This document shows, one piece after another, positions 1,155 to 27,691 of a stretch of DNA of 64,000 nt (position 1 is the stretch's first letter; each line of letters opens with the position of its first letter). The notes beneath the pieces are model-generated. The model was given only the letters and a program-made list of their open reading frames with translations. It was not told where the DNA came from and did no database searches. The position numbers and the translations under genes were made by a program. The stretch lies in the NCBI GenBank assembly GCA_963205185.1, contig CAUJHZ010000007.1, positions 62,001-126,000 of the forward strand, read 5' to 3'. Source of the stretch: Planctomycetota bacterium (GTDB taxonomy: Bacteria > Planctomycetota > Phycisphaerae > Phycisphaerales > UBA5793).

Positions 1155-1922
1155 ATGAAGCAGTCCCTGACGAGGCAGATCTCCGACTACGCCACGACCT
1201 GCGTCTTTTTGGCGCTGCTGGCGTACTTCCTGATCCAGCCGGTTGAGCCCAACTGGCCCGAAACTTCGCCACCGCTCATTGCCGCCGAGGCGCTGCCGCG
1301 CGGCCCGTTGCGGACGGGAGCGCTTCTCACCGCGCCGCCGCAGGCGCTCATCAACGGCTTCGTGCGCGACTGCAACGACTGCCACGCGCTCATGAAGCCG
1401 CCCGCCGAAGCCGCACGCCGCCTCACCCAGCACACCCATCTCGTGCTCGACCACGGCATGAACGATCGCTGCTTCAACTGCCACGCGCGCGAAAACCGCA
1501 ACCGGCTCGCCCTGCGCGGCAGCGAGACCGTCGGCTTCGATCAGGTCGAGCTGCTCTGCGCCCAGTGCCACGGCCCGACGTTTCGCGACTGGGAGCGCGG
1601 CGTGCACGGCAAATCGCTGGGCTCGTGGATCATCGGCAGTGCTGCACGGATCCGGCTGACGTGCGTGCAGTGCCACGACCCGCACGCCCCGCGCTACGCG
1701 CCCATGCAGCCGCTGCCGGCGCCTCACACGCTGCGCATGGGCCCGCAGGATCCGCGTGGCGTTCACGGCCGCGAGAGCGAGGAGAACCCGCTCAGGCGCT
1801 ATCCGTACGAGGAAGACTGGCCCTACGAGCCGGTGCGCATCGGCGTGGAGGAAGAGCCCGGCCCATATGAGTCGGATTCGGCGCCGGAAAAGTCGCCCGC
1901 CCACGGAGAGGATGAGCACTGA
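1155..1922 (+). CDS. Membrane-anchored tetraheme cytochrome c
   Basis: Periplasmic electron carrier of 255 residues tethered by one N-terminal membrane segment (about residues 12-33). Four CXXCH heme sites start at C73 (CNDCH), C106 (CFNCH), C135 (CAQCH) and C170 (CVQCH); the tail is acidic and proline-rich. First gene of a four-gene operon; its TGA overlaps the next ATG by one base (TGATG). By position it should carry electrons between the Fe-S/NrfD quinol module and the octaheme protein, as NrfB does in the Nrf system, though NrfB is pentaheme. Start chosen as the ATG (MKQSLT) just before the membrane segment; a GTG lies one codon upstream and no strong ribosome site is visible. Confidence 0.85.
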   Translation: MKQSLTRQISDYATTCVFLALLAYFLIQPVEPNWPETSPPLIAAEALPRGPLRTGALLTAPPQALINGFVRDCNDCHALMKPPAEAARRLTQHTHLVLDHGMNDRCFNCHARENRNRLALRGSETVGFDQVELLCAQCHGPTFRDWERGVHGKSLGSWIIGSAARIRLTCVQCHDPHAPRYAPMQPLPAPHTLRMGPQDPRGVHGRESEENPLRRYPYEEDWPYEPVRIGVEEEPGPYESDSAPEKSPAHGEDEH

Positions 1923-2974
1923 TGCGCATCTTCGATTCATCTCAGTCGAAGTGTTCACACGGCGAGTGTTCATCCGCCTGCTCCGGTCCGGGGCCGCACC
2001 GCCTCGGCAGCACGCGCCGCAGTTTCCTTCGCAAGGGGGCCGCGGCGATCGGCGGCATGGCGGCGCTCGTCGGGGCCCTGAGCCCGCTTCGCGAACTCGA
2101 TGAAAGCGACCTCGGCTCCGTCGAGAAGTTCATCCAGAAGCACTACAAGGAGATGGACGGCGAGGAGATGCGCCAGGCTCTGGAGCGCATTTCCCGCGAG
2201 GTCGAGAAACGCTACGACCTGCGCCCCGACATCCGCGATGTGCGCCCGATGGACGGCGTTGAGTTCGTCTACGCGCTGAATCTCTCGCGGTGCATCGGGT
2301 GCCGCAAGTGCGTGTACGCGTGCGTGGAGGAGAACAGCCAGAGTCGCGAACCGGAGATTCAGTACATCCGCGTGGTCGAGATGCCGCGCGGCACGCTGGA
2401 CATCGAAAAAGGCAACCACCACTACGACCGGCCGACCGTGCCCGACAGCGAGCACTACTACATGCCGATCCAGTGCCACCAGTGCGCCAAGCCGCCGTGC
2501 GTGAAGGTGTGCCCGGTGGGGGCGACGTGGCAGGAGCCTGATGGCATCACCGTGATCGATTACGACTGGTGCATCGGCTGCAGGTACTGCGAAGCGGCGT
2601 GCCCGTACTGGGCGCGACGGTTCAACTTCGCCGAGCCGAAGATCCCCAAAGAAGACATCAACCCGCGCATGAGTTACCTCTCCAACCGGCCGCGCCACAA
2701 GGGCGTCATGGAGAAGTGCCACTTCTGTCTGCACCGCACCCGCGTGGGCGAACTGCCCGCCTGCCTGGAAGTGTGCCCGACAGGCGCGCGCAAGTTCGGC
2801 AACGTCCTCGACCCCAGGAGCGAAGTCTCGGAGATTCTCAAGACCAAGCGCGTGTTCGTTCTCAAGGAAGAGGCGGGAACGCTGCCTCGCTTCTTTTACT
2901 ACTTCGACGAGCGCCATCCGCGCAGCGACGGCGATCGCGAGGCGGCCGCGCCTGGCCGGGAGGCGACCGCATGA
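1922..2974 (+). CDS. Tat-exported 4x[4Fe-4S] ferredoxin-like electron-transfer subunit (NrfC/HybA type)
   Basis: Iron-sulfur subunit of 350 residues that relays electrons between a quinol-reactive membrane partner and periplasmic cytochromes. A twin-arginine motif TRRSFLRKG (residues 31-39) precedes a hydrophobic stretch to about 56, indicating folded export. Four cysteine clusters are visible: C124/127/130/134, C185/188/193/197, C217/220/223/227 and C266/269/281/285, the full set for four [4Fe-4S] clusters. The N terminus before the Tat motif is long and has three extra cysteines, so a later start is possible. It overlaps the NrfD-like gene by ATGA, implying translational coupling and a complex. 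Confidence 0.9.
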   Translation: MRIFDSSQSKCSHGECSSACSGPGPHRLGSTRRSFLRKGAAAIGGMAALVGALSPLRELDESDLGSVEKFIQKHYKEMDGEEMRQALERISREVEKRYDLRPDIRDVRPMDGVEFVYALNLSRCIGCRKCVYACVEENSQSREPEIQYIRVVEMPRGTLDIEKGNHHYDRPTVPDSEHYYMPIQCHQCAKPPCVKVCPVGATWQEPDGITVIDYDWCIGCRYCEAACPYWARRFNFAEPKIPKEDINPRMSYLSNRPRHKGVMEKCHFCLHRTRVGELPACLEVCPTGARKFGNVLDPRSEVSEILKTKRVFVLKEEAGTLPRFFYYFDERHPRSDGDREAAAPGREATA

Positions 2975-4254
2975 GAGACTACGCCGTCTTTCTCTGGCGA
3001 TGCTTCCGGCTGAGTTTCGTCGGCGACTGGCGCTACGGCGCCTGGATGCTCACGCTCACGGCGATCGCCCTGCTCGGGCTCAACGCCTATTGCCGGCAAC
3101 TCGTCTTCGGCCTGGCCACGACCGGCATGACCGACCAGGTGTCGTGGGGGCTGTACATCGCCAACTTCACGTTCCTCGTGGGCATGGCGGCAGCCGCGGT
3201 CATGCTCGTCATCCCCGTGTACATCTACCGCAACAAGGAACTGCACGATCTGGTCATCTTCGGCGAACTTGCGGCCGTCTCGTTCATCATCATGTGCCTG
3301 CTTTTCGTGACGGTGGATCTCGGCCGGCCGGACCGCATGCACCACCTCTTCCTGCGCTTCAACTTCCCGCTGTCCATGCTGACGTGGGACGTGATCGTCC
3401 TCAACGGCTATCTGCTGCTCAACCTGCACATCTGCGGTTATCTCATCTACTGCGCGTATCGCAAGCGCGAGCCGCGCAAAGCGCTGTTCGTCGTGCCGTT
3501 TGTGCTCATTGCGATCGTCTGGGCGGTGAGCATTCACACGGTTACGGCATTTCTCTACGTGGGCCTTGGCGCCCGGCCGTTCTGGAACAGCGCCATCATC
3601 GCGCCGCGATTTCTCGCGTCGGCGTTCGCCGCCGGGCCGGCGTTCATCGTTCTGGCCCTGCAGGTGATCCGGAGATTCACCGACTACGACGTGCCGTCCA
3701 AAGCGCTCATGACGCTGCGGCAGATCATCCTCGTGGCGCTGACCATCAACGTCTTCCTGCTGATGAGCGAAGTCTTCACCGAGTTCTACGCCGACACGGC
3801 CCACAGCGCTTCGACGCACTACCTCTTCTTTGGCATCGGCGAAAACCGCGCGCTGGTGCCGTGGATCTGGACGTCCCTGGGGATGACGGCGGCAGCGCTG
3901 CTCATTCTCTACCTGCCCCTGGCGCGCAGCCTGCGCTATCTCAACATTGCGTGCGTTCTCATCATCATCGGCGTCTGGATCGAAAAGGGCATGGGGCTGA
4001 TCGTCCCCGCGTTCATCCCGACACCGATCGGCGAGATCGTCGAATACCGGCCGACCATCAACGAGATCCTCGTCTGCCTGGGCATCTGGGCCGCGGGGAT
4101 ACTTCTGTTCACCATTTCGGTTCGAATTACCATTCCGGTTCTTTCCGGTCGTCTCACCATCGATCACCCGTACGCGACCGAGCCGGATACGGAAACAGAA
4201 TCGAACGGATCGCCACGCGCGACAGCACTCGCATTCGAAAGGAGCACGTCGTGA
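2971..4254 (+). CDS. NrfD/PsrC-family quinol-interacting membrane subunit
   Basis: Polytopic inner-membrane protein of 427 residues with about eight to ten hydrophobic segments, matching the NrfD/PsrC/HybB family that exchanges electrons between quinones and an Fe-S partner. The conserved first-helix region (GMTDQVSWGLYIANFTF) and the long central loop with DLGRPDR are typical. The ATG overlaps the preceding stop by four bases, and its TGA is shared with the GTG of the next gene. It should anchor the Fe-S subunit and connect the quinone pool to the multiheme proteins. The C terminus is hydrophilic and Ser/Thr-rich. Confidence 0.9.
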   Translation: MRDYAVFLWRCFRLSFVGDWRYGAWMLTLTAIALLGLNAYCRQLVFGLATTGMTDQVSWGLYIANFTFLVGMAAAAVMLVIPVYIYRNKELHDLVIFGELAAVSFIIMCLLFVTVDLGRPDRMHHLFLRFNFPLSMLTWDVIVLNGYLLLNLHICGYLIYCAYRKREPRKALFVVPFVLIAIVWAVSIHTVTAFLYVGLGARPFWNSAIIAPRFLASAFAAGPAFIVLALQVIRRFTDYDVPSKALMTLRQIILVALTINVFLLMSEVFTEFYADTAHSASTHYLFFGIGENRALVPWIWTSLGMTAAALLILYLPLARSLRYLNIACVLIIIGVWIEKGMGLIVPAFIPTPIGEIVEYRPTINEILVCLGIWAAGILLFTISVRITIPVLSGRLTIDHPYATEPDTETESNGSPRATALAFERSTS

Positions 4255-23556: not shown

Positions 23557-23892
23557 TCAGCCGCTAAGCATGCGGGCACGCTCGATGTCGATGGTCGAGA
23601 AGTGGTTGTAGAAATTGAGGAAGATCGCCAGCGCGATAGCCGCCTCGGCCGCCGCGAGCACGATGATGAACATGGCGAACATGAGGCCGTCCACCGCCGG
23701 AACCCCGCCTTGCGCCACCGCCTCACCCGCCCAGCTGAAGCGGTTGAAGGCGACCAGATTGACGTTGGCCGCGTTGAGGATGAGTTCGACGCCCATGAGG
23801 ATGCCGATGGCGTTGCGCTTGGTGAGGATGGTCGCCACGCCGCAGCCGAAGAGGATCGCCGAAAGCGTGAGGAAGTGACCCAGGCCGATCAT
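23557..23892 (-). CDS. nuoK: NADH-quinone oxidoreductase subunit K
   Basis: Small complex I subunit, 111 residues, three membrane segments. The two functionally important membrane glutamates are visible in GVELILNAANVN and AAAEAAIALAIF. It overlaps nuoJ by four bases (ATGA), so the two are coupled. Slightly longer than the usual 100 residues through a small insertion between helices 2 and 3. Confidence 0.95.
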   Translation of the reverse strand: MIGLGHFLTLSAILFGCGVATILTKRNAIGILMGVELILNAANVNLVAFNRFSWAGEAVAQGGVPAVDGLMFAMFIIVLAAAEAAIALAIFLNFYNHFSTIDIERARMLSG

Positions 23893-24485
23893 GGCGTCTC
23901 CTCGCCTTTGGCCAGATCCGCATGCCGCCCCTTGGCGATGTAGGCCGCGCCGATCATCACCACGAGCAGCAGCACGCCGGCGAGTTCAAACGGCAGGGCG
24001 TACTTGCCCAGCAGGTTCTGGCCGAGTTCGGCCACGCCGTAATGTTCGACGCGCCCGCCCGGGCTGGTCGGGGCGAATCCGCCTGCCAGTTCGACGACGC
24101 CGAGGAAGATCATGAGAAGCGCCAGCAGGCCGCCGATGGCCCAGCCCGCGATCCGCTGGCCCAGAGGCACCGTCAGTCGGATGAAGGGGTTCTTGCTCGT
24201 GAGCATCACGCCGAAGATGATGAGAATCAGCGTTCCGCCGACGTAGACGATCAACTGGATTGCGGCCAGGAACTCGGCGGCGAGGAAGAAGTACAGCATG
24301 GCCACGCTGCCCAGCGTGAAGAGCAGAAAGACCGCCATGCGGACGATCTGCTGGGACAGGACCACGCCCAGGGCCCCGAGCACCGCCACCCCGGCGAAGA
24401 GGTAAAACAGCCACGGCGCGACCGGATCAAGCGTCGGAGGTTGCTGTGCCAGGAGCACCCGGACCACCCTTGTGAAAAAGGACAC
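23889..24485 (-). CDS. nuoJ: NADH-quinone oxidoreductase subunit J
   Basis: Complex I membrane subunit of up to 198 residues with five membrane segments, including the conserved AAIQLIVYVGGTLILIIFGVML helix. First gene of the minus-strand nuoJKLMN run; nuoA to nuoI are not upstream in this window. The start is uncertain: GTG at 24485 has no ribosome site, whereas GTG at 24458 is preceded at about 8 nt by AAGGG. The upstream 476 nt contain palindromes and a possible plus-strand small RNA. Confidence 0.92.
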   Translation of the reverse strand: MSFFTRVVRVLLAQQPPTLDPVAPWLFYLFAGVAVLGALGVVLSQQIVRMAVFLLFTLGSVAMLYFFLAAEFLAAIQLIVYVGGTLILIIFGVMLTSKNPFIRLTVPLGQRIAGWAIGGLLALLMIFLGVVELAGGFAPTSPGGRVEHYGVAELGQNLLGKYALPFELAGVLLLVVMIGAAYIAKGRHADLAKGEETP

Positions 24486-24773
24486 AATATGAGGGGGTCA
24501 AGATAGCGGTGATGCACCATCCGGTCAACTTGATGAACGCTCCGGAATCGCCCTCAAGTCCACCCCCGAGCCCGTTTGCGAGGCCGCAGGGCCGCGGCCG
24601 CGACCGCTGGGCGGAAGGCGCCAGGTGCGGCGGCCAAAGGCGAGCCCGGCCGCTGGCGACATCAGGTCTTTGGGGGACCCCGCATGGGCGACGTTTGTTC
24701 GCATTACGATCGGGTGTCGAAGATGGCGGGCCCGAAATCCGGCTGTCCGGAAAGCGCCCAAGTTGAGGTATTT

Positions 24774-24818
24774 TGCAAGTCCTTGCAGTACAATATGTTG
24801 CGCTATTTCGCCCAACAT
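24774..24818. promoter_or_regulatory. Two adjacent palindromes upstream of the small-RNA promoter
   Basis: TGCAAG-TC-CTTGCA (24774-24787) is a perfect 14-bp palindrome. ATGTTGCGC-TATTTC-GCCCAACAT (24795-24803/24810-24818) has 9-bp arms with one mismatch. Both lie just upstream of the TTGACT/TATGGT pair and could be operators for it, or act on nuoJ, which reads away on the other strand. Confidence 0.4.
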
Positions 24819-24830
24819 CTGATTTCTCGA

Positions 24831-24860
24831 TTGACTTGGGCTTCATGTCGCGGCTATGGT
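24831..24860 (+). promoter_or_regulatory. Sigma-70-like promoter facing a small hairpin RNA
   Basis: TTGACT (24831-24836) and TATGGT (24855-24860) are separated by 18 nt, close to the vegetative consensus. Transcription would begin near 24867 and meet a strong terminator about 85 nt later, with no open reading frame of note between. Confidence 0.45.
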
Positions 24861-24866
24861 CAGTCC

Positions 24867-24951
24867 GACTGTCTATCCTTGGACATCGCGGTTTGTCACC
24901 GCGGTCTTCTTGCCGCCGTGCGGGTGTCGGAGCTTCGCACGGCGGTTTTTT
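24867..24951 (+). ncRNA. Candidate small RNA of about 85 nt
   Basis: Inferred transcript bounded by a promoter-like pair (24831-24860) and an intrinsic terminator. It contains one hairpin with a perfect 6-bp stem (CGCGGT-TTGTC-ACCGCG, 24887-24903) and the terminator hairpin (24912-24945) followed by six T. It lies between two minus-strand genes, so it is neither a leader nor a trailer of a plus-strand gene. I do not recognise a known RNA family. Expression is unproven. Confidence 0.4.
24912..24951 (+). terminator. Rho-independent terminator
   Basis: CCGCCGTGCG and CGCACGGCGG (24936-24945) form a 10-bp perfect stem with a 13-nt loop, followed by TTTTTT (24946-24951). On the minus strand the stem is followed by a mixed sequence, so it acts on plus-strand transcription and not mainly on cstA, which ends at 24962. 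Confidence 0.75.
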
Positions 24952-24961
24952 CATGCGCGCC

Positions 24962-27691
24962 TCACATGCCCACGATGAGCGAGTCTTCGAGCGATTCGTG
25001 GGATGTGTTTCCCATACCTGCGCGCTCGAGCGCCGCATCAGTCGCCCCGTGTTCAATCACGCCGCGCACGCGAGGCCACACGAGCAGCGCTTCGACGATC
25101 ATCCAGACTTCGATGATGATGGAAGCAACGCCGATGAGCGCCAGCGGCCACTTCGTCGCGCCGCCGTCGGGCATGAGCCAGCGCGGCGAGTCGGCGCTGC
25201 CGATAAACACCTGCCAGGTCATCGCCCACATCGGCATGATGAGCATGAACACCATCGGCACGATGAGGAACCACAGCGGTTTGCGCCGCCGCCAGAGATA
25301 CATCGTGATCACGATGAACGACAAGCCGGCGAGGAGCTGATTCGTCGCGCCGAAAAGCGGCCAGAGGATGAGGCCGCCAATTCCGCCGTTGGTGGTCATC
25401 CACGTCCAGGCGCCGCCTGGCCCGTCGGTGAACAGGATTGACCAGAAGCCGGGCGTGATCGGCTTTGTGGGCAGGGCCGCGAGTACGGTGGCGATCACGA
25501 TGGCAAAGACGGTGGCGCCGTGTTTATTGGTCAGCCAGTGAATGGGGTTGAGGATGTTCAGCGCGCCGGGCGTGAGGGACTCGCCCGCGCGTTCGATCTC
25601 TTCGGGGGTGATCATCTCGCCGCACTCCGGGCATTGGATATCGCTGGTCGGCGGCTTGTTGCGTTCCGTTCGAGCAGAGCGAAGCGACGCAGCGTCTTCG
25701 GCCCCGGAGGGGCCGGCGAGCGTAGCCACGGGTGGAGCGATGCTGCTCTGGGCATCGCGGAACCCGTGGGAAGTGTGCGCGCGATCATCATCGCCCCGGA
25801 GGGGCGAAGGAGTTGTGTGTCCTTCTCGCGCGCCGGTTTCTGTCACCCCTTCGGGGCTTGGGAGTTTCTGCGCGTCGTGTCCACGGGTTCCGCTCATCCC
25901 TGGGGGATTCGCTCCACCCGTGGCTGCATTCTCGCGCCCCTCCGGGGCGGAAGTGGCGTCGCTTCGCGACTGCGGTGTCGACGTCGCGTGCTGCCAGAGT
26001 GTGTAGCCGCACTTGGGGCAGGCGTTTGCGGGGCGAGACGGAAGGAACGTCGCGGCGAGTTCCTGCACGACGTAGCGCTGGAGGCGGCACGCGGTGTCGA
26101 GTGTGGTGCCGGCGAAGGAGGCGACGAGCACACCCATCAGCGCGAGTGAAACACCCAAAGGCAACCCTAAGGCGCGAAGCAGATTCGCCGAGCCATCGAC
26201 GAACGCGGCGACGGTCCGCGCGAGGCCGCCGGCGGCGGCCCAGGATTGGTAACGGGTGTTGAATGCGGCGGAGCCAACAAGGCTTGCGTGGAGTTCTTCT
26301 CGACTCATGTCGAGTTTTGCAATCAACACCCCATCCTGCTTCGTTGAAGGGGCACCGCTGCCAGCAACTTCGTCCCGTTCACTCGTCGTCGCACCGTTCC
26401 ATCGCTCGATAACAGAAGAGCCGTCGTCGAACGTGACGAGGGCTCTGGCATTCCCATCGGGTCCGATGAAGTTTGTGGTTACTCCGTGAGGTCTCTGTGG
26501 CTGAACCGTCTCGCCATCGAATGCAGTTGCCGAACCCCTTGGAATAGGAATTCCCAATCCCAAACCCGCCACACACGCGATGATGACCAGCGTTGCGAGG
26601 AAGCCTTCGGTGAGCATCGACCCGTAGCCGACGAAGCGCGCATCCGGCTCGGCGTCGATCTGCTTGCTGCTCGTGCCGCTGCTGACCAGGCAGTGAAATC
26701 CGCTGACCGCGCCGCAGGCGATCGTGATGAACAGAAACGGAAAAATCGGCAAGGCCCCGATCGGGTGCGGATTCCACATCGGCGCCACGACTTCGAGCGG
26801 CTGCCGTGCCGCTCCTTCGACCGGAGGCGCTCCACCAATGAATGCGGCAACGATCAGGCCGACCACGATCAACCCCATCGCCGAGAGCAGTTGCAGGCTG
26901 TTGATGTAGTCGCGCGGCTGCAGGAGAATCCACACCGGCAGCACCGACGCCACGTACGAGTAGATCAGCAGCACGATGACCCACGTCATGTTCGACCACG
27001 ACGCCATCCAGGCGTTCGCCGCGTGCAGGCCGTGCATGACGTGGGCCAGCACCTGCAGATCGGTCGTGAAGTTGTCATCGCCGATCACGACGGTGAGATA
27101 CATGATCGCCAGCGCGATGATCGAAGGCAGAAGCAGGCTCGCGCCGCGCCGATGCAGCCAGACGCCGATGGCCACGGCAATGGGGATCTGCACCGTGCAG
27201 GGGAAGATCGACGCCGGGTACTGTCTGAATACCGTCGCGATCACCAGGCCGAAGATCGCCAGCACGATCGTCAGACCCATGAAGAGAATCAGCAGAAAGA
27301 GCACGCGCACCCGCTTGTTGAGAACGCGGCCGGCGACGTCGCCAATGGTCTGTCCGCTGTGGCGCATGGACACGACCAGCGCGCCCAGATCGTGCACAGC
27401 GCCGATGAAGACTGAGCCGAGCACGACCCAGATCAGCGCGGGCAGCCAGCCCCACATCACGGCGATGGCCGGCCCGACAATCGGCCCGGTCCCGGCGATT
27501 GACGTGAAGTGATGGCCGAAGATGATCGCCTTCTTGGTGGGCACGTAATCGCTGTCATCGCGCAGGCGGTGTGACGGGCAGACCGCCTGCGCGCTGAGCG
27601 CGAAGATGCGCCGGCCGAGCCAGCGCCCGTAGATGTGGTAGGCGATGATGAACCCAAGCCCGGCCGCGATCGCGATGAGCAGCGTTGCCAT
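24962..27691 (-). CDS. cstA: CstA carbon-starvation/peptide transporter with zinc-ribbon and repeat-derived insert
   Basis: Polytopic CstA-family peptide (or pyruvate) transporter, 909 residues against about 700 usual. The conserved FGHHFTSIAGTGPIVGPAIAVMWGWLPAL and DLGALVVSMRHSGQTIGDVAG segments and the C-terminal GGLILWPLFGATNQLLAGL are intact. An insert at about residues 560-700 begins with CPKCGYTLW and ends with CPECGEM, a zinc ribbon. Its two knuckles are separated by about 120 residues of low-complexity sequence encoded by two inverted repeat copies (25679-25806, 25844-25967). The reading frame is kept throughout. A second small insert (about 390-450) precedes a membrane segment. Alone on its strand. 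Confidence 0.9.
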   Translation of the reverse strand: MATLLIAIAAGLGFIIAYHIYGRWLGRRIFALSAQAVCPSHRLRDDSDYVPTKKAIIFGHHFTSIAGTGPIVGPAIAVMWGWLPALIWVVLGSVFIGAVHDLGALVVSMRHSGQTIGDVAGRVLNKRVRVLFLLILFMGLTIVLAIFGLVIATVFRQYPASIFPCTVQIPIAVAIGVWLHRRGASLLLPSIIALAIMYLTVVIGDDNFTTDLQVLAHVMHGLHAANAWMASWSNMTWVIVLLIYSYVASVLPVWILLQPRDYINSLQLLSAMGLIVVGLIVAAFIGGAPPVEGAARQPLEVVAPMWNPHPIGALPIFPFLFITIACGAVSGFHCLVSSGTSSKQIDAEPDARFVGYGSMLTEGFLATLVIIACVAGLGLGIPIPRGSATAFDGETVQPQRPHGVTTNFIGPDGNARALVTFDDGSSVIERWNGATTSERDEVAGSGAPSTKQDGVLIAKLDMSREELHASLVGSAAFNTRYQSWAAAGGLARTVAAFVDGSANLLRALGLPLGVSLALMGVLVASFAGTTLDTACRLQRYVVQELAATFLPSRPANACPKCGYTLWQHATSTPQSRSDATSAPEGRENAATGGANPPGMSGTRGHDAQKLPSPEGVTETGAREGHTTPSPLRGDDDRAHTSHGFRDAQSSIAPPVATLAGPSGAEDAASLRSARTERNKPPTSDIQCPECGEMITPEEIERAGESLTPGALNILNPIHWLTNKHGATVFAIVIATVLAALPTKPITPGFWSILFTDGPGGAWTWMTTNGGIGGLILWPLFGATNQLLAGLSFIVITMYLWRRRKPLWFLIVPMVFMLIMPMWAMTWQVFIGSADSPRWLMPDGGATKWPLALIGVASIIIEVWMIVEALLVWPRVRGVIEHGATDAALERAGMGNTSHESLEDSLIVGM
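25679..25806 (+). repeat. Dispersed repeat inside cstA, copy A
   Basis: Conserved blocks in order: GCGAAGCGACGC (25679-25690), GGCCCCGGAGGGGCC (25700-25714), GCCACGGGTGGAGCGA (25725-25740), GCGGAACCCGTGG (25757-25769), CGCCCCGGAGGGGCG (25792-25806). The same five blocks recur inverted in copy B with matching spacing. The copy is translated in frame (antisense to the strand shown) as part of the CstA insert. Confidence 0.85.
25844..25967 (-). repeat. Dispersed repeat inside cstA, copy B (inverted)
   Basis: Reverse-complement copy of A: GCGTCGCTTCGC (25956-25967), CGCCCCTCCGGGGCG (25935-25949), TCGCTCCACCCGTGGC (25909-25924), CCACGGGTTCCGC (25881-25893) and CACCCCTTCGGGGC (25844-25857). Block spacing differs from copy A by at most one base in the central part. 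A 37-nt spacer separates the copies, so the pair could form a long hairpin in the cstA message. Confidence 0.85.

Follow-up and report, generated by a model that had tools for sequence, protein, structure and literature searches.

A predicted stand-alone small RNA gene of the Phycisphaerae with a conserved promoter, intrinsic terminator and upstream dyad

The intergenic region between nuoJ and cstA in a planctomycete of the order Phycisphaerales almost certainly contains a real RNA gene. We consider it probable that the gene stands alone and encodes a small RNA of about 85 nt, that it represents an undescribed family spread throughout the class Phycisphaerae with about one copy per genome, and that its product acts in trans without Hfq. 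The locus lies in the window, by which we mean the whole 64,000-nucleotide stretch of DNA that was analysed. Across homologous loci, the RNA structure is conserved through paired changes and is accompanied by a sigma-70-type promoter, an intrinsic terminator and a dyad at a fixed distance, and the neighbouring genes change. Comparison strongly supports the small RNA reading; from the same features we infer that the RNA is transcribed, that a dyad-binding factor regulates it and that it acts in trans. Its most likely identity would be a transcriptionally controlled regulatory small RNA that works without Hfq.

The family appears to be new. No Rfam 15 model matched positions 24300–25500 of the window at E ≤ 1, and none matched above its cut-off in eight homologous loci. 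The only two sub-threshold matches in those loci, Acido-Lenti-1 (19.6 bits) and glmS (20.8 bits, over the RNA of locus L153), fell below cut-offs of 37 and were judged to be chance matches. We found no described Phycisphaerae small RNA family in the licensed PMC subset of the literature, which covers the structured-RNA-motif literature incompletely, and a 2022 review gives only eight distinct annotated small RNAs for the whole PVC group (PMC9029176). If the proposed reading is true, an RNA present in single copy, with promoter and regulator site both conserved across a class of environmental bacteria whose order has no detectable Hfq, would offer a concrete entry to planctomycete post-transcriptional control; the covariance pattern lets anyone annotate the RNA family, and the dyad offers a way to find its regulator.

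Anatomy of the locus

The initial annotation had described a promoter-like pair, a 6-bp hairpin, a 10-bp terminator hairpin and a T6 tract, in this order on the plus strand, with palindromes upstream and a minus-strand gene on either side. All elements of the predicted transcription unit are found where they had been placed, and the palindromes and both flanking genes were confirmed (Table 1). The start of the RNA is deduced from the position of the −10 element and its 3' end from the T tract.

Table 1. Features of the small RNA locus and its surroundings, in positions of the window
Feature	Position	Strand	Remarks
nuoJ	23889–24485	−	flanks the RNA locus
Palindrome TGCAAG-TC-CTTGCA	24774–24787		upstream of the promoter
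Dyad AAGTC-N13-ATGTT	24777–24799	.	consensus AAGTC-N13-GACTT, 23 bp
Palindrome ATGTTG/CAACAT	24795–24800 and 24813–24818		upstream of the promoter
−35 element TTGACT	24831–24836	+	invariant in 5/5 genus genomes
Promoter spacer, 18 nt		+	between TTGACT and TATGGT
−10 element TATGGT	24855–24860	+	genus form TAnnGT; most homologues TAnnnT
Predicted small RNA, about 85–86 nt	24867–24951	+	covariance models R1–R3, fold z
5' hairpin GUCUA-UCCU-UGGAC	24871–24884	+	third small hairpin, genus level
Core hairpin CGCGGT-TTGTC-ACCGCG (RNA: CGCGGU-UUGUC-ACCGCG), 6 bp	24887–24903	+	
Intrinsic terminator: 10-bp stem, 13-nt loop, T6	24913–24951	+	stem covaries across the order
Terminator stem arm CCGCCGTGCG	24913–24922	+	
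Terminator loop heptamer UCGGAGC	24927–24933	+	includes GGA; invariant in 62/62 order loci
Terminator stem arm CGCACGGCGG	24936–24945	+	
T6 tract	24946–24951	+	
cstA	24962–27691	−	flanks the RNA locus; CstA by NCBIfam

From its predicted start, the RNA folds into a row of three short hairpins at −41.1 kcal/mol; dinucleotide shuffles average −27.6 ± 3.25 kcal/mol, and none of 200 folds as well (z −4.15). The terminator hairpin was missed by our terminator scan because its 13-nt loop exceeds the scan's loop limit of 8. Taken alone, the promoter is weak evidence: it matches at 9/12, and 10 kb contain 4 such sites versus 1.7 ± 1.1 in shuffles, which is only modestly above expectation. This much would be compatible with hairpins and promoter-like words that arose by chance. 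That explanation is scarcely credible when set against the conservation, covariation and class-restricted distribution described below, which refute it unless the alignments are artefacts; it is the conservation seen in comparison that lifts the locus above chance.

Conservation, covariation and phyletic distribution

A nucleotide search of 41 genomes showed that each of the four further members of the genus carries the locus, at 85–92% identity; the match begins at query base 82 in one of them, and the flanks have diverged. In the genus alignment, the −35 element is invariant, most of the 18-nt spacer is variable, TAnnGT is retained in the −10 element, and toward the 3' end the transcript hardly varies at all; this reads as the profile of a transcription unit. 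In a further member of the same family (G005), the 3' hairpins are kept beside nuoJ, and the promoter lies about 200 nt from the terminator; additional sequence separating promoter and core brings the predicted RNA there to about 206 nt. A transposase-like ORF, recognized by eye, takes the cstA side of the RNA locus in this genome (L006, about 1876–3048). Across the six sequences from the genus and G005, the structure has three doubly changed pairs, and the 5' hairpin has two such pairs (in G002 a U-A pair has become C-G, in G005 a C-G pair has become U-A).

Covariance models were built from 6 (R1), 30 (R2) and 62 (R3) sequences, the search widening outward with each; all E-values that follow are rough, as they come from a short calibration. 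R1 finds one significant copy in the window's own genome (E 5.8e-24, next match 3.55) and, at E ≤ 0.01, detects the RNA in 57 of the 301 order genomes searched. With R2, a match at E ≤ 1e-3 is obtained in 196 of 400 genomes of the order, all six order families (f1–f6) being represented; with R3, 184 of 400 match at E ≤ 1e-4, 181 of them once only. About half of the sampled order genomes thus have no match at the R2 and R3 thresholds, and in these the RNA would be either absent or too diverged. When class genomes were searched with R3, 84 of 258 had a match at E ≤ 1e-4, 32 of them within the order and 52 in other orders. None of 37 genomes from outside the class matched at this threshold (best 4.8e-4); 16 of these had been picked for weak R2 matches (2e-6 to 8e-4), and 21 others were added. 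We rejected the 16 R2 matches: most of the aligned ones lack the loop heptamer and resemble ordinary terminators, and R3 recovers none at E ≤ 1e-4. When 84,980 named species genomes were scanned with a degenerate pattern, 27 stretches matched, 26 in planctomycete-labelled, uncultured or other environmental records and one in Siculibacillus (L056), which was left out of the member count; one record among the 27 is titled Vicinamibacteraceae.

The initial annotation had named a covariance search for both hairpins over planctomycete genomes as one way to check its proposal, and lack of hairpin conservation between relatives as a refutation; both hairpins proved to be conserved and are supported by paired changes. 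The 30 loci derived from R1 contain 14 doubly changed pairs, with 69 doubly changed cells versus 16.6 when shuffled. The 62 aligned order loci, which are part of the loci collected, contain 12 doubly changed pairs and 128 such cells versus 24.2 ± 5.5 when shuffled (0 of 500 as high), and sliding the structures along them lowers the paired fraction to 31–56%. Seven of the ten terminator stem pairs are doubly changed in these loci, with 97.3% of cells paired, and a T tract follows the stem in the aligned loci. In reading these figures, it should be borne in mind that fitting to the models, as was done for alignments A5, A7 and A10, favours the model structures.

The terminator loop word and the core hairpin are conserved at different taxonomic depths. 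The heptamer UCGGAGC, constant in the terminator loop of all 62 order loci, occurs there in only 3 of 20 further class loci; among these further loci, one family has GGAUCGGAGCC-like terminator loops, several have CAGUGGAUGA-like ones, and the remaining loops are unrelated. The motif CCGYGG is present in 46 of 62 order loci and in all 20 further class loci. In the latter, the core hairpin is constant, with CGGC and GCCG paired in 20 of 20, and it is followed by UGG, mostly as UGGCGC, so that the class-wide form of the core is CGGCU-loop-AGCCG and then UGGCGC. Thus, the loop word is a feature of the order and the core hairpin a feature of the class, and the heptamer, not being class-wide, is unlikely to be an ancestral seed. 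Other hairpins with a (G)UCGGAGC loop were seen outside the RNA gene in L124 (G032) and L123 (G615).

Promoter, upstream dyad and gene neighbourhood

A scripted scan of the 62 order loci picked a −35 element with TTGAC in 46 and a spacer of 18 nt in most families (16 nt in f2), and it found no promoter in three loci (L077, L098 and L106). Of the 20 loci from outside the order, 19 carry TTGACA/TATAAT-like pairs that are equalled by at most 2 of 100 shuffles; the scan found no promoter in the remaining one, L153.

Upstream of the promoter lies a dyad that is probably a transcription factor binding site. For its analysis by columns, seven of the 59 promoter-picked loci were dropped for an implausible site (L015, L040, L035, L071, L110, L031 and L069), followed by loci whose picked −35 element did not start with TTGA and then by duplicates, which left 49 distinct order loci. 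In these, columns forming AA-N4-TT-N6-AA-N4-TT stand out at −54 to −33 before the −35 element (z 9.0–20). The dyad is matched at 7 or more of its 10 positions in 27 of the 49 loci (8.6 in shuffles); of these 27 matches, 26 start at −53 to −57. In the copy of the window itself, the right half is degenerate. Loci outside the order have a mean dyad score of 6.9 versus 5.9, with 0 of 200 shuffles as high, and their commonest position for the start of the best dyad is near −63. This lies about one helical turn further upstream, a shift that would suit a factor bound to one face of the helix. Two loci (L083 and L104) carry TTATCCACA-like words upstream of the RNA, which we take to resemble DnaA boxes.

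The genes beside the RNA differ among families, as judged from Pfam domains of the flanking ORFs in selected loci. The cstA gene is convergent with the RNA in the genus, in four of eight tested f2 loci (L026, L029, L033 and L110) and in three of four f5 loci; this arrangement recurs in families f1, f2 and f5. The neighbour in f4 is cysS; in f3, a PagL-like gene follows downstream on the same strand in six loci and a PfkB-like gene is convergent in four; no constant neighbour was seen in f6. The flanking ORFs were picked from six-frame lists according to their length, and some may be in wrong frames. The RNA was found adjacent to nuoJ in the window's family alone.

Because the neighbours differ in this way, the RNA is best regarded as a stand-alone gene and not as a leader, a trailer or an element specific to cstA or nuo. 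Its independence from any plus-strand mRNA, which had been claimed earlier, is supported as well by its own promoter and terminator around about 86 nt. Could it instead be a cis element, that is, a terminator, an attenuator or leader of a neighbouring gene, or a piece of a 3' untranslated region? The same-strand PagL-like gene in the six f3 loci is what such a role would predict, but in the window, in f1 and in part of f2 and f5 the following gene runs in the opposite direction, the RNA keeps a conserved promoter of its own, and the neighbours change from family to family. A cis role is therefore unlikely, and we assign it a very small probability.

The suggestion that the RNA could regulate CstA or complex I found no support: the nuoJ side of the arrangement was seen in one family only, and neighbours vary elsewhere. 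The start of cstA was located in G000, G002 and G003 (G001 and G004 have no located cstA), and GCTCCGA (GCUCCGA in RNA), the seed match to the loop heptamer, is absent from all three start regions. Duplex energies with the cstA start are inconsistent when compared with shuffles: 11 of 100 shuffles are as good in G000 and 56 of 100 in G003, whereas the RNA of G002 beats all 100. For nuoJ, tested in the window only, 45 of 100 shuffles are as good. We give these energies little weight because they describe full-length duplexes without accessibility.

Candidate modes of action

We regard a regulatory role in trans as likely. In the mechanism that we propose, a transcription factor would bind the dyad and switch the RNA on or off, and the RNA would then act on mRNAs encoded elsewhere, probably by exposing short conserved unpaired stretches that pair with its targets. 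Candidates for these stretches are the UCGGAGC terminator loop in this order and, for most of the class, the UGGCGC-type linker that follows the core hairpin. As to base-pairing itself, the chances are about even, and it is the mode of action we favour, with binding of CsrA through the loop GGA as its main rival.

The systems that invite comparison are trans-encoded small RNAs with their own promoters and Rho-independent terminators, such as Spot 42, MicF and GcvB. Like them, the RNA predicted here is encoded by an intergenic stand-alone gene (about 75–120 nt in most loci) with a sigma-70 promoter, a regulator-like site upstream and an intrinsic terminator at the 3' end. Unlike them, it has a terminator loop that is invariant in sequence within the order, it is related to no Rfam family by either sequence or model, and it occurs where Hfq is not detected: the Hfq domain (PF17209) was found in 0 of 81 order genomes, including the window's genome, and in 5 of 14 control genomes. 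The RNA would consequently have to work without Hfq in this order.

Does the heptamer mark a pairing site that genomes avoid? Its complement AGCTCCGACA has 16 sites in the five genus genomes, five of them in the RNA genes themselves, versus 125 for the reversed word. We rejected this as a signal, since AGCT is avoided four-fold in the window (96 versus 389 expected) and the rarity of AGCTCCGACA is therefore not due to the RNA. Across the window, AGCT occurs at 0.25 and CTAG at 0.27 of expectation, which suggests that the avoidance of AGCT in this genus is restriction-driven.

The presence of GGA in the terminator loop makes a CsrA-binding RNA conceivable. In this scenario, the loop GGA (in UCGGAGC, or in GGAUAGGAGCC or CAGUGGAUGA in other families) would titrate or redirect CsrA in the manner of CsrB or RsmY. 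CsrB, CsrC, RsmY and RsmZ are CsrA-sequestering RNAs, and the RNA shares with them a GGA in a hairpin loop. CsrA (PF02599) is present in all 81 order genomes tested, and the loop GGA in all 62 order loci and in 11 of 20 further class loci (the latter by eye). On the other hand, RNAs of the CsrB/RsmY type carry many GGA triplets, whereas this one has one or two and no excess outside the loop: the mean over 51 distinct RNAs is 2.6 versus 1.5 in shuffles, and it falls to 1.6 versus 1.5 once the invariant loop copy is left out. Moreover, the UC before and the GC after the GGA are also invariant in the order, beyond what GGA binding would need, and 9 of the 20 class loci lack a loop GGA (by eye). 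On balance, we consider CsrA binding unlikely, though worth retaining as the first competitor of base-pairing.

Slightly less probable still is that the RNA binds another protein, or RNA polymerase, through the core (R)CGGCU-loop-AGCCG-UGGCGC, in which case it would represent a new functional class and not an antisense RNA. Stems constrained in sequence are typical of protein sites, and all 20 loci from outside the order have the CGGC/GCCG sequence unchanged, although the terminator covaries. Against this, the core sequence is altered in the window's own family (CCGCGGUCUUCUUG), and the RNA folds into successive short hairpins and not into a long bulged rod like that of 6S RNA. We know of no partner for the core hairpin. 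6S RNA is about 180 nt long and forms a long hairpin with a large internal bubble; the present RNA (compared with RF00013) resembles it in being usually single copy per genome throughout the lineage, and differs in its 85 nt of consecutive short hairpins and in having no Rfam match.

A broader proposal, which we offer as a tentative and rather improbable one, joins several of these elements. The RNA might define the class Phycisphaerae, be ancestral to several of its orders, stand under one conserved transcription factor and act without Hfq through its sequence-locked core (CGGCU-loop-AGCCG-UGGCGC), bound by CsrA or by another protein; it would then be a new class of ribonucleoprotein regulator. 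The reading that we prefer remains that of a base-pairing RNA acting in trans.

The neighbouring cstA gene has a peculiarity of its own. Its coding region contains two copies of a sequence of about 90 bp (25679–25769 and 25881–25967) that form an imperfect inverted repeat with 76% identity; the repeat falls in an extra insertion containing a zinc ribbon, and relatives in the genus carry related, partly diverged versions. This repeat may be a palindromic element that has turned into coding sequence.
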